From: a virus
DNA length: 54,410 nucleotides
Virus record (IMG/VR): IMGVR_UViG_3300044739_000092
Span: 1 to 54,410 of that record
Reading direction: 5' to 3' (one strand)
A program made the translations under genes and the position numbers. Positions 11,805-53,982 of this stretch are shown one piece after another. Each line of letters opens with the position of its first letter. Positions within the stretch are counted from its first letter, which is position 1. Below the pieces are notes generated by a model, which did not search any database, was not told where the DNA came from, and worked only from the letters and a program-made list of their open reading frames with translations.

Positions 11805-12001
11805 CCCCCTGCCCGCGGCCGGACAAGCTCCGGCACACCACCCCAGCCGCCGCATGGGCACACGCCCGAGCCCTCCGCCGCAACGGCGGCAGCCCCGACA
11901 TCAAGCCCTACTACTGCCGCGACCACCAAGCGTGGCACGTCGGACACGACCCCAGGTCGCTGCGCCGACGCATCCACCACGCACTCAGGAAGGCCGCCTG
12001 A
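11801..12001 (+). CDS. 66-residue protein of unknown function
   Basis: Basic protein with IKPYYCRDHQAWHVGH in the middle, matching a recurring short family in actinophages (YxCxxCxxWHxG-like), here with only one Cys. It lies before the HNH gene with a one-base stop/start junction. Function unknown. Confidence 0.6.
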   Translation: MTPCPRPDKLRHTTPAAAWAHARALRRNGGSPDIKPYYCRDHQAWHVGHDPRSLRRRIHHALRKAA

Positions 12002-12585
12002 TGGCCGTCAGCAGACGACTCCGCTACGAGATCCTGCGACGCGACAACCACGTCTGTCGCTACTGCGGTGTCGCGGCGCCCGACGTCCCGCTCACCGTGG
12101 ATCACGTCGTACCCGTCGCGCTCGGCGGCACCGACGACCCCACGAACCTGGTCGCCGCCTGCCAGCCCTGTAACGCCGGCAAGAGCTCGAGCTCACCTGA
12201 TGCCCCGCTCGTCGCCGACGTGGCTGCGGATGCCCTGCGGTGGTCCCAAGCCATGTATTGGGTCGCGTTCCACTTCGAGACTGAGCTGCTGTCTCGGCAG
12301 GGGTACCGGATGCACGTCGATCACGTCTGGTCTGAGTGGACCTACGGGCCGCAGAAGCTGCCAGTCCCCAGGCCGATCGACTGGCAGGACTCAGTGGACA
12401 GGTTCGTCATCGCCGGCATGACTGAGCAGCTTCTCACCGAAGCGATCCGCAAGGCCATGGCGGCCACCAATGTCAGCCCCGACAGCACCTGGCGGTACTT
12501 CTGTGGCATCGCCTGGCGGCAGATCAAGGAGATGCAGGAAGTCGCCCGCGAGGTCGTCACCATCGAAGACGGGGCGGTGGACTGA
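12001..12585 (+). CDS. HNH endonuclease
   Basis: 194 residues. The HNH domain covers the first ~65: RRLRYEILRRDNHVCRYCG, VDHVVPVALGGTDDPTNL and CQPCNAGKSS, with the C-x2-C and C-x2-C zinc pairs and the DH...N...K active site. The remaining 130 residues form a helical domain rich in Trp that is not part of the usual HNH. It stands directly before the replication initiator with a one-base junction, so it may be a helicase-loader-like accessory or a homing-type nuclease kept in the replication module. Confidence 0.82.
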   Translation: MAVSRRLRYEILRRDNHVCRYCGVAAPDVPLTVDHVVPVALGGTDDPTNLVAACQPCNAGKSSSSPDAPLVADVAADALRWSQAMYWVAFHFETELLSRQGYRMHVDHVWSEWTYGPQKLPVPRPIDWQDSVDRFVIAGMTEQLLTEAIRKAMAATNVSPDSTWRYFCGIAWRQIKEMQEVAREVVTIEDGAVD

Positions 12586-13634
12586 TGGCCCGCCACTTCG
12601 CCCAGCTCGAGGTCGCCATCTGGCGCGACCCCGACTTCAAGGCACGCAGTTCGGCGGCGCAGCGCATGTTCATGGTGCTGTTCTCCCAAGCTCCCCTCAG
12701 CCCGGCCGGCGTCCTGACCCTCGCCATCAAGAAGTGGTCCGGATTCGCGCCCGACACCACCCAGGACGACATCCGTGTCGCGCTGGCCGAGCTCGAGCAG
12801 CACCGGTTCGTGGTGGTCGATGAGGACACCGAGGAGCTGTTGGTGCGGTCGTTCATCCGCCGGGATGGGGGGTGGAAGAACCACCTGAAGATGTGGCCCG
12901 GGATCCGGGCTGCGGCGCTCCAGGTCGAGTCGCCGGTGCTTCGTCGGTCGATCGCTCGAGAGCTTCAGCGGCTACCTGCCGATCGCCGTCCGGGTGACGT
13001 GCCATCGGTGATCCGCGAGCTGTGCGTGAGTGATGGCATCGGTGATGGCATCGGTGATGCGATAGGCGACCGGCCCACAGATCCGGCTGTTTCTGTGGAT
13101 AACCCGGATAGCCGCAGGTCAATCGGTGATGACATCGGTGACCAGGTCAGTGATGCGGACGGTGATGGCATCGCCTCTGGTGTAGGTGAGTACTTACGTA
13201 GGAAGGAGACACCTGCACCTACACCAGGAACTACACCTCCACCGTCGCGTCCCGAACCGCAGGCACTTCCGGCCGATCTCGGCGAACAAGCGGGGGCGGA
13301 GGGGCAGCCTCGAGACCTCATGGGGAGCCTCATCGCTCAGGTGCAGGACGTCCGCCCTGAGTGGGGATCGACCGCGATCCGAACCACCCTCGAGCGGGCC
13401 CGTGCCGACGGCCGGCCGTGGCACCTGACCCGTGACGCCATGATCCGGGTCGCCAACGCCCCGGACTCCCGTGCGCCGGCACGGCTGCTCGAGCAGGGCC
13501 CGTGGTGGAACGAGGCCGCCAACGGCTCCGGGGTGAAGCCTCCGCGGCCGGCGGACCTGAAGAAGTGCCCGACCCATCCGGGTGAGCTGGCGTCGAACTG
13601 CCGTTGCTGTGCTGCGGATCGGAAGGCGTCGTGA
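12585..13634 (+). CDS. Phage replication initiator / replisome organiser with internal origin
   Basis: 349 residues. The N-terminal ~125 residues are a winged-helix domain of replisome organisers: FAQLEVAIWRDPDFKARS, AQRMFMVLFSQ, PDTTQDDIRVALAELEQ, FVVVDEDTEELLVRSF. A low-complexity linker follows with the tetrapeptide repeat GDGI/GDAI/GDDI, coded by 12-bp iterons, then a Pro-rich stretch. The C-terminal part (~230-349) is helical and ends with a Cys cluster (KKCPTHPGELASNCRCC). This order (DNA-binding domain, iteron-coded linker, protein-interaction tail) matches lambda O and other initiators that carry their origin inside the gene. It should load a host or phage helicase; no phage helicase gene is seen here. 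Confidence 0.75.
   Translation: MARHFAQLEVAIWRDPDFKARSSAAQRMFMVLFSQAPLSPAGVLTLAIKKWSGFAPDTTQDDIRVALAELEQHRFVVVDEDTEELLVRSFIRRDGGWKNHLKMWPGIRAAALQVESPVLRRSIARELQRLPADRRPGDVPSVIRELCVSDGIGDGIGDAIGDRPTDPAVSVDNPDSRRSIGDDIGDQVSDADGDGIASGVGEYLRRKETPAPTPGTTPPPSRPEPQALPADLGEQAGAEGQPRDLMGSLIAQVQDVRPEWGSTAIRTTLERARADGRPWHLTRDAMIRVANAPDSRAPARLLEQGPWWNEAANGSGVKPPRPADLKKCPTHPGELASNCRCCAADRKAS
13032..13227 (+). other. Putative phage replication origin: iterons, DnaA box, inverted repeat
   Basis: Within the initiator gene lie 9-bp near-palindromes of the form GATGNCATC in strict 12-bp phase. Set one is at 13032, 13044 and a weaker 13056; set two is at 13128, 13140 (GACCAGGTC), a weaker 13152, and 13164. Between them is TGTGGATAA (13094-13102), the exact complement of the classic DnaA box TTATCCACA. 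Downstream, the 12-bp arms CTGGTGTAGGTG (13177-13188) and CACCTACACCAG (13216-13227) form an inverted repeat around 27 bases that include an AT-richer stretch. Repeats are observed; origin function is inferred by analogy with lambda ori. Confidence 0.65.
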
Positions 13635-16573: not shown

Positions 16574-16641
16574 CTCATGCCCAACCCCCGGAGGTGCGCT
16601 GTGGCTGCCTCCTGCGCCGAAACTTGCGCCTCCCCGGGCTG

Positions 16642-17244
16642 ATGCGAACTACCAACCCGGACCCGCACCGCACCATCCGAGCGGCCCGCACGCTGGTCTC
16701 CGACTTCCTCCGAGCCACGCCGCTACTCGAGCACCACCGCGACGAGATGCTGTCCGACGCTCTCCACGCCGCCGTCGTGTACCTGCCCAGATGGCAGTCG
16801 GACCGCGGATGCACGGTGCACACGTTCCTGAGGATGAAGATGCGGTACGCCGTCATCGACGGCATCCGCGACCGGGCGCCGATCGGGCGCGGCCGGTACC
16901 AGCGCGGTGTCCGCCTCGAACACCTACCGGACTGGCAGCTGGACTCCCTGTCGCTGGAATACGTCCTCGACTGCGCGGCGTCACACGGGAAGTCCGGTGA
17001 CCGGCCGGAGGGCATGTTCCCCGACCCGCAGGCTGAGCGTGCCTACGCCGAAGTGGACGCGCGTCTGGCCGTGCGGCAGCTGCTGGCGATGCTGTCGGAC
17101 AGGCAACGTGAAGTCATCATCCGCATCGACCTCGGCGGTGAGACGGGCCGCGACGTGGCAGCCGACTGGGGTGTCTCCGAGTCGGCAGTCAGCCAAGTCC
17201 ACACGCAGGCCATGAGGCGCATGCGGAAGGAGCTGGAACGGTGA
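16642..17244 (+). CDS. Sigma-70 family RNA polymerase sigma factor (phage)
   Basis: 200 residues. Region 2 is seen in RWQSDRGCTVHTFLRMKMRYAVIDGIRD, with the conserved Y-x-x-I-D-x-x-R helix; region 4 is RQLLAMLSDRQREVIIRIDLGGET, then VAADWGVSESAVSQVHTQAMRRMR, an HTH. It resembles FliA/SigB-type short sigma factors. ATG 16642 gives a start at the domain; a GTG at 16594 in frame is possible, but GGAGG lies too near it. Placement right after the early terminator and before packaging genes suggests that it directs middle or late transcription, a scheme that is rare in siphophages of actinobacteria. Confidence 0.8.
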   Translation: MRTTNPDPHRTIRAARTLVSDFLRATPLLEHHRDEMLSDALHAAVVYLPRWQSDRGCTVHTFLRMKMRYAVIDGIRDRAPIGRGRYQRGVRLEHLPDWQLDSLSLEYVLDCAASHGKSGDRPEGMFPDPQAERAYAEVDARLAVRQLLAMLSDRQREVIIRIDLGGETGRDVAADWGVSESAVSQVHTQAMRRMRKELER

Positions 17245-48270: not shown

Positions 48271-50403
48271 GTGCGCGAGTCCGAACGGCAGCGGATCGTC
48301 GCCGAGGAGACCGCCGACGAATGGCCCTACGAGGCCTGGTCGAACCCCGTCAGCGCGATGCTCGGCACGTACCTCCTCGGCGTCCTGCTGCACATGGCGG
48401 ACGTGTCACCGTGGTGGCCGCTGCTGACCGGGCTCGCTGTCACCGTCACGTGGGTCGGCTGCACCGTGTCACTCGGCACCAAGGACCTTGGTGTCGGGTA
48501 CGCGGCGGCAGTGTCCCTGTCGGTGACAGGGTGGCTGACATGGGCCGCCGGACACCCGACACTCGACATCCGGAACTGGCCTGTCACCCGCGACTCGTGG
48601 TGGATCCTCGCCACCGCCACCGCCATCCTCGCCGTCGTGTGGGGTGTCCTCATCCGGCAACGCGCGAACGCTGTCGCTGACGTGGCCGACCGTCTCCGCG
48701 GTGTCACCGGACAGGGCGACAGTTGGGAAGACGCCTGCCGGCAGGCCGGGATCGCCGGCTGGGAGTACGAGTCGCAGGAGACGACACCCGGCGGCATGAA
48801 GGTGACGATGCGGATCCGCCCGGGTGGCACCACGTACCGGCAGGCCCTCGGCTCGGTGGAACGGTTGGAGTCGTGCGTCGAGGCCCCGTACCACGGCGCG
48901 GTGCGAATCGAGAAGGGCGCGAACGCCGCCCGGGCGGTCATCGTGTGGAACGAGCGGAACATGCTCGCCGAGGTCCTGCCGTACCCGGACGACATGTCGC
49001 CGACGGACATCGTGAAGCCGATGACGACCGGCATGTTCGAGGACCGCATCCCGGCGACCGTCACTTACGCGTACCGGTCGAGCCTCACCCTGGGGCAGCG
49101 GGACGGCGGCAAGAGCAACGAGAACGCGGTGAAGATCGCGAACCTCGTCCGCGCCCCCAACGTCCTCATCTGGCTGTCGTGTTTCAAGCAGGGCTCGGCC
49201 GCGAAGCCGTGGCTGGCCCCGTACGCCGCCGGGCAGGCCGCCGCGCCCGCCCTCGACTGGGTGACCGTGTGCACCCCCGCCGACATGGCTGGTGTTGAAG
49301 CGCAACTCGACGCGCTCGACCGGATCGGGAACGAACGCGCCCGACGGCGCACCAGCGACAAGATCGTGCCCACCCCGGAGCAGCCCGCGATCCGCCTCAA
49401 CATCGACGAAATCGCCGACCTGCTGGCCGACCCGCGGAACTACCGCATCGCCGCGAAACTCGTCCTCGTCCTGCGTAAGCACAGGTCAGAGGGCATCGAC
49501 CTTGATCTTGCTTCCCAGCGGGGCACCATGTCGTTCCTCGGACAGTGGGCCCGCGACATCGCCTCCCAGGTCAGCATCGTCAACGTGTTCAAGGTCGACA
49601 ACCCCGCCGAGGTGTGGAACGCCCTCGGCTTGGACCGGTCCCGGATCGGCGGCATCGACCCGTCCACATTCGAGTACCAGGGCACGATGCTCACCGTGGC
49701 GCCCGGCGCCCGGATCGCGCCGCAGAAGGTGTTCCGCATCAACCACGACGACCCCCTCGCCGTCCCCAAGCTGGCGGCTGCCGGCGCCGCGCACCGGCCC
49801 CAGCTCGAGCAGTCGGCTGTGGCGGCGGCGGGGCCGCAGTACGCGCGCCGTTGGCAGACCGACCAGGTCCGGGCCCTGCTGGTGGATGCGGCGCGGATCG
49901 TCGGCGGCCAGTATCAGCCCGCGCACGTTCCCGCCGTCGGCCACGCGACCGTCCCCGCCTCGGTCCCCGTGCAGGTGGCGGGTCCGCCGCGGTTGCGTGC
50001 CGTGCCGTACCTCGACCCCACCAGCAGCGTCCCCGTCGAACGGCAACTCGGCCTCCACAAGATCGACGGCCGGCAGATCCTCGTTGACCAGTTCGGGCCG
50101 GTGGAGGGCGAGAAGGCGTGGCAGTTCGCGCAGGGCTACAACCTGCTCGTCGAGGCCCGCCGGATCCTCGCCGCCACCCCCGACCGGGCGTTGCCGACGC
50201 GGGACCTCCTCGACCAGTTGGCGTTGCGGCCGAAGTGGGACGGGCTCACCCCGGAACGCCTCGCCGAGCTCGTCCGCCCGCACGGCGTGAGGCCTGACCA
50301 GCTGGGGGCGTCGCGGTTCCCGGGGAACCCGCGCGGCTACCGCCTCTCCAGCGTCGAGGAGGCGCTGCGGCAGCCCGCCGAGGACTCCCCGACACCGGCG
50401 TAG
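48271..50403 (+). CDS. FtsK/TraB-like DNA translocase of conjugative-element type
   Basis: 710 residues. Four N-terminal TM helices (AMLGTYLLGVLLHMADVSPW; LLTGLAVTVTWVGCTV; YAAAVSLSVTGWLTWAAG; WWILATATAILAVVWGVLI). The FtsK/HerA ATPase has GQRDGGKS (275-282, a full Walker A) and AIRLNIDEIADLL (Walker B, near 370). The C-terminal part has two helical segments and a winged-helix-like end (RRILAATPDRALPTRDLLDQL, PERLAELVRPHGVRPDQLG, GYRLSSVEEAL), in the place of the FtsK gamma/TraB wHTH that reads DNA repeats. Length and layout fit TraB/Tra of Streptomyces plasmids and AICEs, which move double-stranded DNA between cells with this one protein. The 8-mer repeats just after the stop support that. 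AGGAAGGA ribosome site; GTG start. Confidence 0.82.
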   Translation: MRESERQRIVAEETADEWPYEAWSNPVSAMLGTYLLGVLLHMADVSPWWPLLTGLAVTVTWVGCTVSLGTKDLGVGYAAAVSLSVTGWLTWAAGHPTLDIRNWPVTRDSWWILATATAILAVVWGVLIRQRANAVADVADRLRGVTGQGDSWEDACRQAGIAGWEYESQETTPGGMKVTMRIRPGGTTYRQALGSVERLESCVEAPYHGAVRIEKGANAARAVIVWNERNMLAEVLPYPDDMSPTDIVKPMTTGMFEDRIPATVTYAYRSSLTLGQRDGGKSNENAVKIANLVRAPNVLIWLSCFKQGSAAKPWLAPYAAGQAAAPALDWVTVCTPADMAGVEAQLDALDRIGNERARRRTSDKIVPTPEQPAIRLNIDEIADLLADPRNYRIAAKLVLVLRKHRSEGIDLDLASQRGTMSFLGQWARDIASQVSIVNVFKVDNPAEVWNALGLDRSRIGGIDPSTFEYQGTMLTVAPGARIAPQKVFRINHDDPLAVPKLAAAGAAHRPQLEQSAVAAAGPQYARRWQTDQVRALLVDAARIVGGQYQPAHVPAVGHATVPASVPVQVAGPPRLRAVPYLDPTSSVPVERQLGLHKIDGRQILVDQFGPVEGEKAWQFAQGYNLLVEARRILAATPDRALPTRDLLDQLALRPKWDGLTPERLAELVRPHGVRPDQLGASRFPGNPRGYRLSSVEEALRQPAEDSPTPA

Positions 50404-52953: not shown

Positions 52954-53982
52954 GTGGAAGACCTGGACGCTGAACTGCTCCCCGCGGTACCCGACGCACC
53001 CCCAGGAAACATCGTCCACGCGGGGGAAATCGAGCGGGCCAACCGCTACCTCAAGCGCGCCAAGTCCGACGCCACCCACGGCGCCTACGCCCAGGACTGG
53101 GCCCGGTGGACAGAGTGGTGCGCCGAAACCGGCCGCGACCCAGGCGTCCCCGCGGACCCGTTCGCGGTCGTCGCCTACGTCACCGCTCTCGCCGACGCAG
53201 GCTCCCCGCCCTCCACGATCCTGCGCCGACTGTCCGGACTCGGATACGAACACCGTCGCCGCGGCCACGACTCCCCCGCCCGGCACCCCGCCGTGTCCGA
53301 GGTCATGTCCGGAATCCGCAACGTCGCCGCCGACGGCGGCCACCGCACCCGCCAGGCCGCCCCCCTCGACACCGCCACCGTGCGACTGCTCGTAGAGGAC
53401 ATGCCCACCGGACTGGCCGGCGCCAGAGACCGGGCCATGCTCCTCCTCGGCTACGGACTCGGACTCCGGTCACGGGAGATCGTCCGCCTCAGCGTCCGAG
53501 ACATCACCGACATCGGAGCCGGGGGCGTCGAAGTCTTCATCGCGCAGTCGAAGACCGACCAGGGAGGCGCCGGAGTCACGCTGGCCCTCCCCCGGTCACC
53601 GCGGGAATCCACCTGCCCAGCCCGCGCAGTCCTCGCGTGGATCGAGGCCGCCCAGCTCACCGACGGGCCGCTGTTCCGCAACATCGACCGACACGGCAAC
53701 CTCGTCCCGCCCGGACTGGACAGCCGCGGACGTCACCGCGGCGACCGGATGGCCCGAGAGTCGGTCGGCCGGATCATCCACCGCGCCTGCCTGAACGCCG
53801 GGATCCTGTCCGGAGGATTCTCCGCTCACTCGCTGCGGCGCGGCTTCGCGACCACGGCGTACCGCATCGGCAAGGACGAGAAGGAGATCAGCCGCACCGG
53901 CAGATGGCGCCACCTGCCCACCCAGCGCCGATACGACGCGAGCAGCCGGTGGGAGAAACCAGCTGGCGGACTGGACCTGTAG
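52954..53982 (+). CDS. Tyrosine recombinase
   Basis: 342 residues. SAM-like N-terminal domain (YLKRAKSDATHGAYAQDWARWTEWC, VAYVTALADAGSPPSTILRRLSGL). Catalytic residues: Arg in GLGLRSREIVRL (near 175), Lys in QSKTDQ, H-S-L-R-R in the HxxR motif, W/H in GRWRHLP and Tyr in QRRYD. All six are present. Its tail is short. It is most similar in outline to actinomycete plasmid/transposon integrases, not to arm-binding phage integrases, since it lacks an N-terminal arm-type domain. It gives the element a second recombination enzyme besides the serine integrase. GTG after AGGGGGA; four-base... the stop shares a base with the next start (TAGTG). Confidence 0.92.
   Translation: MEDLDAELLPAVPDAPPGNIVHAGEIERANRYLKRAKSDATHGAYAQDWARWTEWCAETGRDPGVPADPFAVVAYVTALADAGSPPSTILRRLSGLGYEHRRRGHDSPARHPAVSEVMSGIRNVAADGGHRTRQAAPLDTATVRLLVEDMPTGLAGARDRAMLLLGYGLGLRSREIVRLSVRDITDIGAGGVEVFIAQSKTDQGGAGVTLALPRSPRESTCPARAVLAWIEAAQLTDGPLFRNIDRHGNLVPPGLDSRGRHRGDRMARESVGRIIHRACLNAGILSGGFSAHSLRRGFATTAYRIGKDEKEISRTGRWRHLPTQRRYDASSRWEKPAGGLDL

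Follow-up and report, generated by a model that had tools for sequence, protein, structure and literature searches.

The DNA between positions ~13030 and ~13230 of the virus studied here is very probably the replication origin of a temperate actinophage, located inside the gene for its own initiator and working in the manner of lambda O and the RepA_N initiators, with a role in replication that we infer. The window, by which we mean the entire IMG/VR record of 54,410 bp, has a GC content of 70% and appears to come from a virus of high-GC actinobacteria. Origins in comparable positions have been described elsewhere. That of lambdoid phages is situated midway along gene O (PMC7466680), and the RepA_N origin of the plasmid pSK41 is central in rep, where it encodes the linker of the protein (PMC5703833). 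For RepA of the extrachromosomal mycobacteriophage prophages Miko and Rachaly, a lambda-like origin just upstream of or within repA was suggested by the authors, who found no repeated motifs in the regions they examined (PMC7157519). In the literature that we searched, whose scope excluded most subscription journals, we found neither a reported origin for the protein family to which the present initiator is assigned nor an experiment on the replication initiation activity of that family.

Results

The initiator and its predicted structure

The initiator gene (12585-13634, plus strand) codes for 349 residues, which the structural model divides into an N-terminal winged-helix domain, a linker predicted to be disordered, and a C-terminal domain of helices. 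The protein matches PHROG 3171 over residues 1-348 (E 9e-45) and PHROG 8064 over residues 2-137 (E 1e-33), both of which are described as 'replication initiation protein'. Relatives were found by tblastn in 136 phage records (Gordonia, Arthrobacter, Mycobacterium, Thermobifida, Corynebacterium), several of which carry the annotation 'RepA-like replication initiator'. Judged by these matches, the protein belongs to an actinophage 'replication initiation / RepA-like' family, the function of which is given by annotation. Sequence searches with the initiator gave no match in Pfam, NCBIfam, or the PDB, and neither the lambda O profile (PF04492, Phage_rep_O) nor the RepA_N profile (PF06970) matched anything in the whole record at E <= 10. 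An HNH endonuclease gene (12001-12585; PHROG 14314, E 1.8e-73) lies immediately upstream, and in several relatives an HNH or endonuclease gene likewise adjoins the initiator.

An AlphaFold2 model, built with 52 sequences in the input, folds the N-terminal domain into a winged helix with high confidence (pLDDT ~95 for residues 10-150). Confidence is low in stretches between residues 163 and 240, which are mostly coded by the origin-like DNA, and C-terminal helices start at residue 243. The N-terminal part (residues 1-149; 12585-13031, plus strand) is conserved in 125 loci and is the proposed iteron binder, while the C-terminal part (residues 233-349; 13281-13631, plus strand), which is 28-36% identical to stand-alone proteins of relatives with a split gene, is the proposed recruiter of the host replisome. 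In a VIA-align comparison, the N-terminal domains of RepA_N proteins (4pql, 4pta, 4pt7, 5kbj) were among the top rows with Z 6.0-6.3, a level that is too low to demonstrate kinship and may reflect only a common arrangement; the CRP-like structure 2oz6 ties with them, and DnaD follows at Z 4.8. Foldseek returned no match in the PDB at E <= 0.001 and a match to a viral 'replisome organizer' model at E 3.5e-6.

Elements of the putative origin

A sequence-only reading of this DNA had described units of the type GATGNCATC in 12-bp phase in two clusters, an exact TTATCCACA on the complement strand between them, and a 12-bp inverted repeat on their 3' side, and all three are present as described. There are just four exact copies of GATGNCATC in the 54,410-bp record (13032-13040, 13044-13052, 13128-13136, and 13164-13172), and they share one 12-bp phase (13128 = 13032 + 96), into which degenerate units at 13056 and 13152 also fall. 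The first cluster (13032-13067) consists of two copies of GATGGCATCGGT and a degenerate unit; the second (13128-13175), phased with the first, is made up of GATGACATCGGT, two degenerate units, and GATGGCATC. The DnaA-box-like TTATCCACA (13094-13102, minus strand) is the sole exact copy in the record, against a chance expectation of 0.06, and it is found in two relatives as well (L047 and L058). It opens a block, TGTGGATAACCCGGATAGCCGCAGGTCAAT (13094-13123, plus strand), that is partly common to the same two relatives, in the same place ahead of the second iteron cluster. We agree with the earlier remark that such a box is out of the ordinary for a high-GC host: in M. tuberculosis and S. coelicolor, the high-affinity DnaA boxes read TTGTCCACA (PMC4285127).

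The inverted repeat (13177-13227) is perfect over 12 bp, with CTGGTGTAGGTG at 13177-13188 and CACCTACACCAG at 13216-13227 around a loop of 27 nt. It is unexceptional as a foldback (z -1.8), and its arms carry a GTAGG-type repeat that is found in other members of the family. Within the loop lies TACTTACGTAGG (13191-13202, plus strand), an element that the sequence-only reading did not mention, as it did not mention the hexamer tracts described below; its TTACGT(A) motif is enriched in relatives. The surrounding segment (13090-13239) is a local GC minimum, with only two 150-bp windows of the record lower than it, and may be the opening region, yet at 55% GC against 70% it is not AT-rich. No switch in GC skew is seen at 13 kb, which counts against an origin, and a DNA similarity search with 12940-13300 in phage records found no match. 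The iteron region codes for residues 150-207, inside the low-confidence linker of the model.

Repeats in the linkers of relatives

The window protein by itself retrieved no relatives from viral contigs, and an alignment of the N-terminal domain was needed. The resulting set of 125 loci, from genome contigs, viral contigs, phages, and one plasmid, was reduced to 72 clusters at 80% N-terminal identity. Motifs were counted in gene positions 400-800, directly after the N-terminal domain, and expectations were taken from the flanks. AACCCTT occurs 113 times in the linkers of 32 members, compared to 1.1 copies expected (103-fold over flanks). All three reading frames and both strands are represented, and the spacing is mostly 12 or 11 bp. 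Other clades have AACCCC, GATGsCAT, or TATCCGAT as their linker repeat, and the nearest relative (L046, 54% identity) carries GATGGCATS units followed by GGTGTAGGTGGTTACGTAAG. The iteron sequence is specific to the clade: AACCCTT dominates the family, and GATGNCATC is a minority class. Iteron class also clusters on the tree, with 8 changes compared to 20 in shuffles, a result that says little alone because the iterons and the N-terminal domain are parts of one gene.

Further elements often accompany the iterons across the family, namely hexamer tracts, among which GTAGGNGTAGG is enriched 61-fold in linkers, and the TTACGT element, with 24 copies compared to 1.5 expected. In 42 of the 72 loci, the strongest segment with a period of 11/12 bp falls in the linker, where chance would place it in 4.3% of cases each, and inverted repeats of at least 10 bp are present in 46% of linkers compared to 11% of control blocks. 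The DnaA box does not characterize the family, being found in exact form in only four of the 72 members; L047 and L058 share with the window both the box and the sequence after it. GCAGGTC, tested as a family-wide element, was not enriched, and so only the longer block common to these two relatives was retained. None of the counted iteron classes is present in 20 of the 72 members, though some of these carry other repeats, and this counts against the origin reading. The gene neighbourhood of the relatives resembles that of the window, with RecE/RecT-type recombination genes, HNH, and RuvC/RusA-like nucleases.

The motifs exceed what the encoded proteins require. In synonymous shuffles of 64 family genes, AACCCTT was retained in 26 +/- 4 copies compared to 103 observed, GATGsCAT in 6.3 compared to 25, TTACGTA in 1.4 compared to 14, and TTATCCACA in 0.3 compared to 4. 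The linker elements are under selection at the DNA level across the family.

Relatives with a split gene

Several Arthrobacter and Propionibacterium phages divide the initiator between two genes, with the C-terminal domain as a stand-alone protein. In Mufasa8, gp49 corresponds to the N-terminal domain of the family and gp51 is a protein like the C-terminal domain of the window. The 374-bp gap between them holds twelve AACCCTT/AAGGGTT sites at an exact spacing of 12 bp, in clusters of five and seven, and there are none in the remainder of the fetched Mufasa8 locus; gp50, an annotated hypothetical ORF, spans most of the gap in another frame. The corresponding gap contains GGTAAGC repeats, four CCCGTA hexamers, and CTTACGTAAG in B22, TAGCA repeats and TTACGTAA in TripleJ, and CCTACTTACGTAGG in both Phrank15 and Auxilium, and TACTTACGTAGG is identical in the window and the latter two phages. 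In B22, TripleJ, and Phrank15, the N-terminal gene matches PHROG initiator families other than that of the window, so the TTACGT element is not confined to a single type of initiator. In Phrank15 (L132 1546-1980) and Auxilium (L134 1549-1980), an HNH endonuclease gene lies between the origin-like gap and the gene for the C-terminal domain.

The sequence-only reading had put an origin within the coding sequence of the initiator, on the pattern of lambda O. Two observations support this placement: dozens of relatives carry iterons in the equivalent linker, with every reading frame represented, and split relatives carry them between the half-genes. That reading was largely right.

Other features of the record

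At 707-1222, the window contains the first 170 codons, at the 5' end, of an exonuclease III gene (xthA), 79% identical to an intact, actinomycete-like protein of 267 residues. This fragment ends where a serine integrase gene (1219-2676) begins, and the 3' part of xthA was sought in the window and not found, so the phage has probably integrated into xthA. A second integrase, of the tyrosine type (52954-53982; PF00589, E 3e-13), is encoded near the right end of the record. A sigma-70-like factor (16594-17244; region 4, E 9e-10) is found among the early genes, and a 710-residue FtsK/SpoIIIE-like protein (48271-50403; PHROG 31069, E 3e-18) is encoded outside the structural gene block.

Discussion

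Alternative explanations

The repeats might be a mere by-product of a repetitive, disordered GDGI linker and include no cis-acting element. The earlier claim that the iterons also code for a GDGI linker is correct as regards coding, and for the window gene this explanation is adequate: when the codons were shuffled synonymously with the protein kept, the 12-bp periodicity recurred in 334 of 2000 shuffles (17%), because the peptide itself repeats GDGI. A repeat in the DNA and one in the peptide are therefore not separable from the window alone, and the case rests on the comparison with relatives. Codon choice in the region favours a constraint on the DNA, in a manner that is suggestive, not decisive: GAT makes up 9 of 13 codons compared to 80 of 468 elsewhere (P 7e-5), GGT is also preferred (P 1e-3), and a lone TTA codon stands at 13194, with none among 622 Leu codons in the other genes counted. 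For the family, we reject the peptide explanation on the grounds that the motifs appear in all frames and on both strands, far above synonymous shuffles, and between the half-genes of split relatives, which makes it extremely improbable for the window too.

The same winged-helix protein could also use the repeats for autoregulation, partition, or silencing while replication starts elsewhere in the genome. Operators or parS, too, typically consist of bound repeats within or close to a regulator gene, and GC skew leaves 13 kb unmarked. We nevertheless consider such a role unlikely. The sites are ~450 bp downstream of the start codon and not at a promoter, and they are accompanied by tracts of the GTAGG type, TTACGT, and, for some members, a DnaA box. 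The annotation of the protein family is that of replication initiators, and the protein is similar to RepA_N initiators, which have their ori at this position. An origin of the proposed kind could, moreover, have become inactive if the record represents a decaying prophage. Only four units keep the full core, two others in phase are degenerate, and some relatives hold more units, such as the 12 AACCCTT sites in L004. The odds are strongly against such decay, given that the initiator reading frame is intact, the four cores are still phased, and the early genes (RecT, RuvC-like, methyltransferase, HNH) continue to match their families clearly.

Proposed model of initiation and comparison with known systems

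In our model for the gene-embedded origin, the N-terminal winged-helix domain would bind the 12-bp GATGNCATC iterons in the two phased clusters, possibly assisted by host DnaA at the single box between them. The resulting complex would strain the adjoining segment of lower GC content, with its GTAGG-type repeat and TACTTACGTAGG, and lead to opening, after which the C-terminal domain would recruit host helicase or primase. This last step is proposed because DnaB and family A polymerase (PolA) matches were sought in the record and none was found, as would be expected of a phage that depends on the host replisome. The peptide joining the two domains would simply be whatever the origin DNA happens to code for. 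A 92-kb circular Prescottella equi record (NZ_CP027794.1; L014, L137, L138), labelled as a plasmid, has genes for capsid, tail, terminase, integrase, a ParB-like protein, and the family initiator, and is likely a phage-plasmid; no other product in its incomplete annotation is named initiator, which counts in favour of the origin reading.

The earlier comparison with lambda O stands for the arrangement, namely iterons in the middle of the initiator gene, an N-terminal DNA-binding part, and use of the host replisome, the last two being predicted here (PMC7466680). It does not extend to the protein, for which the Pfam lambda O profile gave no match and the best structural likenesses include RepA_N plasmid initiators, at modest Z. 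Moreover, the window has 12-bp units where lambda has long iterons, possesses a TTACGT element and no truly AT-rich region, and contains no identified partner P. With RepA_N initiators such as pSK41 Rep, it shares a predicted N-terminal winged helix, a putative central ori encoding the linker, and a separate C-terminal domain (PMC5703833), but it lacks a PF06970 match, and pSK41 is a plasmid of low-GC Firmicutes. As the arrangement is the same and neither profile is matched, we say only that the initiator would work like these systems, not that it is a member of either. Miko and Rachaly RepA is likewise a phage-coded initiator, and the likeness is one of description. The actinophage initiators of PHROG 3171/8064 are homologous over the N-terminal domain; in contrast to them, the window has the rare iteron class GATGNCATC and a C-terminal domain that is otherwise a separate protein.

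Conclusions

We tentatively suggest, as an idea that is plausible though somewhat short of probable, that temperate phages of actinobacteria have a modular gene-embedded origin, in which the iterons change with the N-terminal domain, TTACGT(A) and a hexamer tract recur across N-terminal families as a common site for opening or host-factor docking, and the gene can split around the origin while the origin is kept. If the origin reading is true, origins could be predicted to within a few hundred bases in many actinophages and prophages of Gordonia, Mycobacterium, Arthrobacter, and Streptomyces, and would provide candidate small replicons for genetic tools in Actinobacteria. The fused and split genes would form an evolutionary series in which the same stretch of DNA is either a protein linker or intergenic, and the recurring TTACGT element would point to a further factor in origin opening.
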